Below, piece by piece: positions 61,914 to 63,029 of a stretch of DNA of 64,000 nucleotides. The DNA comes from Nocardia stercoris (GTDB lineage Bacteria; Actinomycetota; Actinomycetes; Mycobacteriales; Mycobacteriaceae): the NCBI RefSeq assembly GCF_003696265.1, contig NZ_RFFH01000001.1:682001-746000 (forward strand). The letters run 5' to 3'. Below the pieces are notes generated by a model that saw only the letters and a program-made list of their open reading frames with translations, ran no database searches and was not told where the DNA came from. Each line of letters begins with the position of its first letter. Within the stretch, counting starts at the first letter, position 1. Position numbers and translations under genes: made by a program.

Positions 61914-61940
61914 GCCCCGGGGACTAGCCTGCCCCGGGGC
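61914..61940 (-). terminator. terminator behind the tRNA-like RNAs
   Basis: Minus-strand GCCCCGGGG and CCCCGGGGC (9 bp) around a 9-base loop, followed by TTCCCC. It lies just downstream of RNA 2 and could end its transcript. Confidence 0.55.
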
Positions 61941-61948
61941 CTCGGTCT

Positions 61949-62110
61949 GCCGCCGAATTGCGTTGTGCCGACACATTTAAGGACGGAGTGAGTCTGAAGT
62001 GACGCGGCGCTCTACGATTGAGCTACGGCCCATTGGTGGCTGAGCCGGCGGGAGTTGAACCCGCAACCTCCACGCTGACAATCCGTTCTCTCGATTCGGC
62101 ACACGGCGGC
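61949..62110 (-). ncRNA. Y-RNA-like (permuted tRNA-like) RNA 2
   Basis: On the minus strand the tRNA parts occur in permuted order. T arm GCGGG-TTCAACT-CCCGC, acceptor 3' strand CGGCTCA, loop GCCACCAA, acceptor 5' strand TGGGCCG (7 bp), D arm GCTC/GAGC, then the anticodon-stem strand CCGCG, which pairs back to CGTGG before the T arm. Outer helices ACGGA/TCCGT, TGTGCCGA/TCGGCACA and GCCGCCG/CGGCGGC close the molecule. The D loop has one G fewer than usual. A CCA is encoded inside the acceptor loop. The topology is that of bacterial Y RNAs (YrlA type). Confidence 0.65.
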
Positions 62111-62259
62111 GAATGCTGAAGCTGGAGCGATAATGTGAGATTGAGTGGGTGGCGACGCCTCTACCGATTGGGCTACCCCACCAGGAGTGGTGGGGGAAGG
62201 ACTCGAACCTTCACTGGACCGCTGTACCCGTCACATCGAACTTCGGTTTCAGCTTGCGC
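62109..62259 (-). ncRNA. Y-RNA-like (permuted tRNA-like) RNA 1
   Basis: Same architecture as RNA 2, read on the minus strand 40 bases behind the unknown gene at 62298. T arm GAAGG-TTCGAGT-CCTTC, acceptor CCCCACC, short loop, GGTGGGG (7 perfect pairs), D arm GCC...AATCGGTAGA...GGC, and anticodon-like stem GTCGC with GCGGT. Outer pairs ATGTGA/TCACAT and an imperfect 12-base helix (62248-62259 with 62109-62120) close it. No normal cloverleaf can be drawn in linear order. Either a Y RNA with a tRNA-mimic module or a truly permuted tRNA gene. Confidence 0.65.
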
Positions 62260-62297
62260 TCCTTGCGCGACACCGAGATTAGACGGTGTGGCCGCGC

Positions 62298-63029
62298 TCA
62301 GCCAAACAAATATCCGAAGACGCTCTCGCCCAGCTTGCGCTGCGTGATCTCGGTGTTGTTGGCCTCCTCGCGCGCGAACTTCACCGCCTGCTGCAGCTTC
62401 TCCACCCGGTCGGTGAGCTCGTTGACCCGCTTGGCCGGCAGCGCGCCGGAGAACTTGATGGTCCGCCAGTAACCGACCACCACGTCCTCGTGGTACACCT
62501 CGACCTGCGCCGGATGCTTCTCCGTCGCTTCGGCTTTCACGTGGTTGCGGGGAATCTTCTTGGTGCGCACCGTCTGCACCGGCTCGGTGGCGTAGCAGTC
62601 GGCCGAGGAGTCGTACTCCCAGGACTCCGAGGCGTCGAGCACCGGCAGCTTGCGCACGAAGGTGTGCAGATCCACCAGCTGCTTCTCCAGGAACAGCAGG
62701 TAGGTGACAGGCGCGCCCTCGATCAGGGTGCGGCCGTCGACCACCACATCGGCGGTGGCCGCGCAGTTGGCCCAGTCCTTGGTGGCGACGACGTCGAAGA
62801 GTTTGGTCAGGATGTCGGCCGTGGTCGCGAGGACCTCCTCGGACTTCACCTGTACGCGCGTCGACTCGGGCGGCAGCTGCTCGCCCTCCTCGTCCTTGGG
62901 GCGGTAGGTGCGCGAAATTCCGCTCAACAAAGGATTCTTGCCCAGCTTGTGGTGGGCCTCGGTGAGATCGGAGAAGGTGCGGGACTTGATCCCTTTCTCG
63001 ACGGCGACAATCTGATTCAAACGTGTCAT
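62298..63029 (-). CDS. conserved actinobacterial protein of unknown function
   Basis: Protein of 243 residues beginning MTRLNQIVAVEKGIKSRTFSD. It has conserved-looking blocks (LLSGISRTYRPKDEEGEQLPPES, FDVVATKDWANCAATADVVVDG, LLFLEKQLVDLHTFV, KIPRNHVKAEATEKHPAQVEVY, YWRTIKFSGALPAKRVNELTDRVEKL). It resembles a protein widespread in Streptomyces and relatives, perhaps the family named DUF7873; this is tentative. No catalytic motif is visible. Start ATG 63029. Directly downstream on the same strand are the two tRNA-like RNAs, which suggests a functional link. Confidence 0.7.
   Translation of the reverse strand: MTRLNQIVAVEKGIKSRTFSDLTEAHHKLGKNPLLSGISRTYRPKDEEGEQLPPESTRVQVKSEEVLATTADILTKLFDVVATKDWANCAATADVVVDGRTLIEGAPVTYLLFLEKQLVDLHTFVRKLPVLDASESWEYDSSADCYATEPVQTVRTKKIPRNHVKAEATEKHPAQVEVYHEDVVVGYWRTIKFSGALPAKRVNELTDRVEKLQQAVKFAREEANNTEITQRKLGESVFGYLFG

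Follow-up and report, generated by a model that had tools for sequence, protein, structure and literature searches.

A gene of the DUF7873 family (PF25283) and, directly downstream of it, an RNA lie on the minus strand of the window, by which we mean the whole stretch of 64,000 nucleotides of Nocardia stercoris DNA that was analysed. The gene (62298..63029, 243 amino acids from an ATG), whose product is the predicted protein partner of the RNA, matches its Pfam family with an E value of 4.7e-118 and 393.7 bits against a cut-off of 27, and it is a full-length member, as positions 1-242 of 244 are covered. The family is listed as being of unknown function and the name DUF7873 is absent from the open-licence papers searched. 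The protein is predicted to fold with confidence (pLDDT 87.5), but its model had no match among solved structures or viral ones at E <= 0.001, a second look included, so RNA binding is not readable from its fold.

Direct reading of the RNA (61949-62255) and an anchor search independent of any folding model agree that, twice in a row, a T arm and the 3' strand of an acceptor stem are followed by the complementary 5' strand and a D arm. Unit 1 (62112..62255) consists of a basal stem and the first circularly permuted tRNA-like head (62157..62212), in which the T arm GAAGG-TTCGAGT-CCTTC (62212-62196) is followed by the acceptor 3' strand CCCCACC (62195-62189), a 6-nt linker, the acceptor 5' strand GGTGGGG (62182-62176), U8-A9 and the D arm (62173-62157). 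Unit 2 (61949..62111) is likewise a basal stem with the second permuted head (62009..62064), made of the T arm (62064-62048), the acceptor 3' strand CGGCTCA (62047-62041), the linker GCCACCAA (62040-62033), the acceptor 5' strand TGGGCCG (62032-62026) and the D arm (62023-62009). The acceptors pair over 7 bp in both heads, and tRNA numbering fits them, with a 5-bp T stem, the 7-bp acceptor, U8-A9 and a D arm with its loop. In both units the anticodon stem is without an anticodon loop and continues into the long basal stem. Two tandem circularly permuted tRNA-like units with 7-bp acceptors had been proposed in a sequence-only reading of this DNA, and direct reading, the anchor finder and covariation all confirm them.

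The same reading spoke of two RNAs. The two units stand, though probably not as separate molecules, because the gap of about 5 nt between the two basal stems makes one transcript likely. One promoter-like element before the RNA and one hairpin after it would also argue for a single transcript. The candidate promoter (62276..62305) is composed of TTGGCT (62305-62300), 18 nt and TAATCT (62281-62276), with a predicted start near 62269, and a 5' hairpin, GCGCAAGGAGCGC (62256..62268), is found in the six sequences of the genus that were compared. The likely end of the transcript is a G+C-rich hairpin, GCCCCGGGG...CCCCGGGGC (61914..61940), and the relatives compared have a hairpin of changed sequence at the same place. 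This hairpin has no U run and was not listed in a terminator scan of the window, which gave no terminator with a U run; a scan of the window for consensus promoters found no site. Among 86 anchored sequences of 94, 27 have a TANNNT hexamer positioned at -14 to -12 relative to the RNA, and 35 have one anywhere in the preceding 23 nt, compared with 44 of 850 control stretches; the Streptomyces loci listed are without this element.

Structure, covariation and the anchor search

Folding of single sequences is weaker evidence for the structure than covariation and anchors. Unit 1 folds with a z score of -1.66 (11 of 200 shuffles fold as well) and unit 2 with -3.24 (1 of 200 shuffles is as good), the minimum-energy fold of unit 2 being without the T and D arms. 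Among six sequences of the genus, acceptors and basal stems differ in a compensatory way, and two sets of 26 sequences each (A5 for unit 1 and A6 for unit 2), drawn from Actinomycetota, Chloroflexota, a Deinococcales assembly, phages and a plasmid, were compared for covariation. In unit 1, 90.7% of the cells are paired and 18 of the 37 pairs have two-sided changes, with a covariation score of 0.313 (shuffled versions 0.140, slid versions at most 0.083); compensatory change is present in five of the six helices, and the D stem is invariant. In unit 2, where 90.5% of the cells are paired, two-sided changes are found in 38 of the 46 pairs, the score is 0.561 against 0.210 (shuffled) and at most 0.141 (slid), and all eight helices show compensatory change. 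The sequence-only reading had made its claim depend on conservation of the outer, basal helices, and these are both conserved and covarying.

The anchor finder, which uses anchors only and linkers below 40, was applied to 72,000 downstream plus-strand bases of 80 DUF7873 loci. At a score of at least 14.5 it gave 133 modules behind DUF7873, with at least one module in 72 and at least two in 59 of the 80 loci, as against nine modules in 1.83 Mb of background and none in 360 kb of dinucleotide shuffles. When the score was raised to at least 16, there were 122 modules in the 72 kb behind DUF7873 and none in the 1.83 Mb of background. The permuted modules are not a product of chance, and the structure of the RNA is real and old.

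It is known that permuted tRNA genes of algae and archaea have the 3' half before the 5' half with a short linker between them, an order shared by the RNA of the window, and a permuted tRNA gene was the rival which the sequence-only reading considered. Here cleavage of the transcript within the acceptor linker and ligation on the anticodon side would yield ordinary tRNAs, and an RtcB gene is indeed present in the genome. Some linkers also start with N73-CCA (20 of the 71 first and 22 of the 71 second modules); with such numbers CCA does not seem to be conserved after position 73, but bacteria may add it. No anticodon loop is left in the heads, which have long covarying outer stems in continuation of the anticodon stem instead, and ARAGORN found no tRNA at 61949-62255. 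We consider maturation into ordinary tRNAs very improbable. The RtcB gene (C34:446595-447731) and the TROVE gene of the genome are on different contigs, which gives no indication of a Salmonella-type RNA repair operon.

Relation to YrlA and to Ro60

No Rfam family reaches its gathering score on the RNA of the window. With a lax threshold the best-scoring matches were to YrlA (RF02553), 35.0 bits at 61977-62089 (E 6.4e-6) and 25.2 bits at 62129-62237 (E 0.0044), both below the gathering score of 69 bits; the YrlA-type layout proposed from the sequence is right, and both units score with the model. The tmRNA models RF04321 and RF00023 gave 17.9 and 16.3 bits and did not reach the gathering score of 47. 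The RNA shares with the permuted (two-piece) tmRNA of RF04321 a circularly permuted tRNA-like end and differs from it in this low score and in possessing two heads. In 12 DUF7873 loci searched at gathering score Rfam gave only tRNAs, one tRNA-Sec and one tmRNA, and among the open-licence titles and abstracts found on bacterial Y RNA, YrlA and permuted or tRNA-like RNAs we recognised none on the window's RNA, though single members may already be among the YrlA RNAs described.

With YrlA the RNA has in common the permuted T arm, acceptor and D arm, the looped acceptor and the long basal stem. Tandem occurrence is also possible for YrlA, as in locus L242 described below and in Salmonella, where yrlBA is presented in PMC7790460 as a tandem YrlA-type arrangement. 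The explanation preferred in the sequence-only reading was that the two units are bacterial Y RNAs of the YrlA type, which bind Ro60/Rsr; as such they would tether it to PNPase. Besides the shared layout and the two YrlA matches, this explanation has in its favour that a TROVE gene is present in the genome. The sequence-only reading had noted that the window has no TROVE/Rsr gene, which is true, and its proposal to search the genome for a TROVE-domain gene and RtcB was followed, with both being found. The TROVE (Ro60) gene (C1:196.2-197.9 kb) is situated about 546 kb from the RNA of the window and has a YrlA of its own immediately upstream (42.5 bits), gene and YrlA together being at G000:C1:196208-198013. 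That the matches in the window are below the gathering score speaks against Y RNAs, but the Ro60-linked YrlA is below it too.

In a sample of 150 genomes of the genus, more than 100 bits with a covariance model of unit 1 was taken as a strong RNA match. Such a match is present in 38 genomes, PF25283 in 62 and TROVE in 65. DUF7873 was found in all 38 genomes with a strong RNA match and in 24 of the 112 others (p 1.8e-19). TROVE is not associated with the RNA (18 of 38 genomes, compared with 47 of 112 without a strong match; p 0.58), 20 of the 38 having no TROVE match, nor is it associated with DUF7873 (25 genomes with both, p 0.62). The RNA of the window is therefore unlike YrlA in that its partner gene is DUF7873 and not TROVE, and also in being two-headed in what is likely one transcript and below the Rfam gathering score. 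As the RNA tracks DUF7873, and the separate Ro60 gene has its own YrlA, two Ro60/Rsr-bound Y RNAs are an unlikely explanation. The label of Y RNA is half right, the architecture being the same and the partner different. The best reading of the RNA is that of a Ro60-free YrlA relative, and a relation by descent would be plausible. These data indicate that the permuted tRNA mimic of Y RNAs exists also apart from Ro60.

Tandem pairs of RNAs that score as YrlA, spaced by about 155 nt, were observed in L242:1453-1777 and L243:837-1160 (minus strand), in both cases with PhoX on the other side. In L242, which belongs to another genus, the pair is directly upstream of a TROVE gene, an arrangement that also favours Y RNAs as an explanation for tandem units; in L243 no TROVE was found in the two frames tested.

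Association of the RNA with DUF7873

The identity of the RNA and its partnership with DUF7873 are well supported, and a protein family of unknown function thereby gains a likely RNA partner. In 37 of the 38 genomes of the genus with a strong match, a gap of 46-86 nt separates the RNA from the end of the DUF7873 match, which precedes it on the same strand; the exception is G165 with a gap of 2,438 nt. In G043, G008 and G057 the match to DUF7873 is limited to a 3' part of the gene, and a stop is in frame around the match in G078, G148 and G165. All 24 genomes of the genus with DUF7873 and no strong RNA match have a weaker match behind the gene (best 21-52 bits), one of these loci, L219, being interrupted by a contig end. 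They belong to a second type of locus (L217-L241). Of their 23 readable loci, 22 have no T-loop motif ahead of the first basal stem's 3' strand; in the remaining one, L236, such a motif is inside the basal stem itself. In the loci of this type that were inspected by eye, what stands in the place of head 1 is at most a plain hairpin, and both the sequence of the basal stem and head 2 are kept. Retention of the basal stem where head 1 is lost suggests that the basal stem would be the part that binds the protein and the heads the business end.

In 16 of these 24 loci (L223-L238) we observed a linear tRNA-like gene after unit 2 and before the final hairpin. Its body is nearly invariant and its anticodon varies between species (GTT, CTC, TCG, GTA, CTG, ATC, GAT and TCC, with one 6-nt loop), and by eye the 1:72 pair is often mismatched.

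Of 7,999 candidates scored, 7,510 were homologues of DUF7873. For the distribution beyond the genus, the best 80 named loci, out of at least 565 loci found, were examined. The closest of these 80 is from Nocardia sp. alder85J (99% identity), and they include Nocardia, Kibdelosporangium, Streptomyces, Ktedonobacter, Herpetosiphon and Sorangium as well as Deinococcales, Acidobacteria and Armatimonadetes assemblies. Both the gene and the RNA are present in all 80 sources, with the RNA directly downstream of DUF7873 in 75. In the other five, four Herpetosiphon and one Chloroflexi assembly, the RNA is situated elsewhere in the genome (86.8-125.8 bits); no RNA was found in the 8.7-12.7 kb around DUF7873 and no DUF7873 match within 3 kb around the RNA. 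The presence of both in every source, even where the RNA is apart from the gene, points to an RNA capable of acting in trans.

An RNA which usually follows the gene at 46-86 nt on the same strand could also be a cis-acting regulator of DUF7873, either a 3' UTR or an attenuator. In the five genomes just mentioned, however, an RNA with a full-length model match is encoded away from the gene, and in the four of Herpetosiphon it stands behind a TACAAT element; before the RNA of locus L251 this takes the form TTGCCC-17-TACAAT, a site of which one is expected by chance. Regulation in cis thus has hardly any probability as an explanation. The 18 gene groups listed as recurring most often beside the 80 loci include, apart from readings of DUF7873 in other frames, no other gene that occurs under more than seven genus labels or in more than 14 loci. 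With no neighbour that recurs widely, the pair of DUF7873 and RNA seems to be complete in itself.

Of 296 genomes of the phylum, six have DUF7873 and five have the RNA above 100 bits, and these five are all positive for DUF7873, which is adjacent. The sixth genome with DUF7873 (G335, L241) has a match of 32.6 bits behind the gene. Two weaker matches without DUF7873 (50.2 and 48.1 bits) in this sample, the loci L242 and L243 described above, score as tandem YrlA pairs. Together with the named loci, this gives joint occurrence of gene and RNA in assemblies labelled Actinomycetota, Chloroflexota, Deinococcales, Acidobacteria, Armatimonadetes and Sorangium.

DUF7873 was also detected in 73 of 50,697 phage records and in four plasmid records, of which 11 phage records and one plasmid were examined. 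At least one permuted module is present downstream of DUF7873, on the same strand, in all 11 phage loci. The match to the RNA model is clear in L198-L202, L204 and L245 and weak in L246-L248 (E 0.0003-0.005), and L203 has a module recognised by its anchors (model E 0.19). In L204 the pair is 1.8 kb downstream, and in the plasmid locus both units are present. Phages with the pair are those of actinobacteria, cyanobacteria, Vibrio, Klebsiella and Rhizobium. Such a spread over many taxa and phages makes the pair purifiable and testable from many sources.

Possible role of the tRNA-like heads

We consider it probable, with some reservation, that a single RNA, about 330 nt long and carrying its two permuted tRNA-like heads on basal stems that are conserved, forms an RNP with DUF7873 which offers tRNA mimics as bait or tether to tRNA-handling enzymes. 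The lack of head 1 in the second type of locus, and of a consensus promoter and a U-run terminator in the window, speaks against it. Since the genomes and phages examined that have the DUF7873 gene also have the RNA, the two likely form a particle; its role would be that of a tRNA decoy or tether. DUF7873 would bind the basal stems, which persist in loci whose head 1 is a plain hairpin. Many tRNA enzymes read the T loop, D arm and acceptor, and heads which keep the T loop, the D arm and a 7-bp acceptor could be mistaken for tRNA in spite of having neither an anticodon loop nor a conserved CCA, features that translation requires. It is for these reasons that we infer a function as tRNA mimic; a decoy or tether is one of several roles which such a mimic could have. 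The plan would be the same as that of YrlA, with DUF7873 possibly in the place of Ro60. According to PMC8394870, the basal stem of YrlA holds Rsr and its tRNA-like part binds PNPase, and according to PMC7790460 a decoy role against an anticodon nuclease has been proposed for YrlA. With the pair in hand, the purpose of bacterial tRNA mimics becomes directly testable.

A protein and an RNA without a widely recurrent neighbour could also be a toxin-antitoxin or defence module, in which a DUF7873 effector is held in check by the adjacent RNA and the heads sense enemies that cleave or bind tRNA. The patchy distribution in the genus (62 of 150 genomes) and the presence on phage and plasmid records are in accordance with this. 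In type III toxin-antitoxin systems, however, the antitoxin is an RNA of tandem repeats upstream of the toxin gene, and the RNA described here is downstream of DUF7873 or, as in the four Herpetosiphon genomes, apart from it and in trans. PADLOC gave no match, and DUF7873 is unusually conserved, with 74-78% identity to the members from Chloroflexota and Deinococcales among the matches listed. A toxin-antitoxin or defence module is therefore rather unlikely, and we prefer the RNP with tRNA mimics as bait or tether.

Annotated tRNA genes are present in the stretch of eight of the 11 phage loci, and copies of the pair so close to tRNA genes suggest tRNA defence or processing as its field of action. 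A wider interpretation, which is no more than tentative and on balance doubtful, would be that of a widespread and so far unrecognised RNP machine of bacteria and phages that exists beside Ro60-YrlA. In it a tRNA counterfeit, borne by phages near their tRNA genes, would bait or gate enzymes that attack tRNA, or the ribosome, and one branch of Nocardia would have gained the linear tRNA-like gene as a third element, with an anticodon swapped between species.

In the Gordonia phage Phendrix (L198:1072-1600) a tmRNA match of 89 bits was observed in the same tRNA cluster, where the record's feature table has none. In the Klebsiella jumbo phage (L245:2829-2972) the D arm of the first head is TGGCGGAATTGGTAGACGC, which we take to be similar to that of tRNA-Leu, so the heads may mimic different tRNAs in different hosts.
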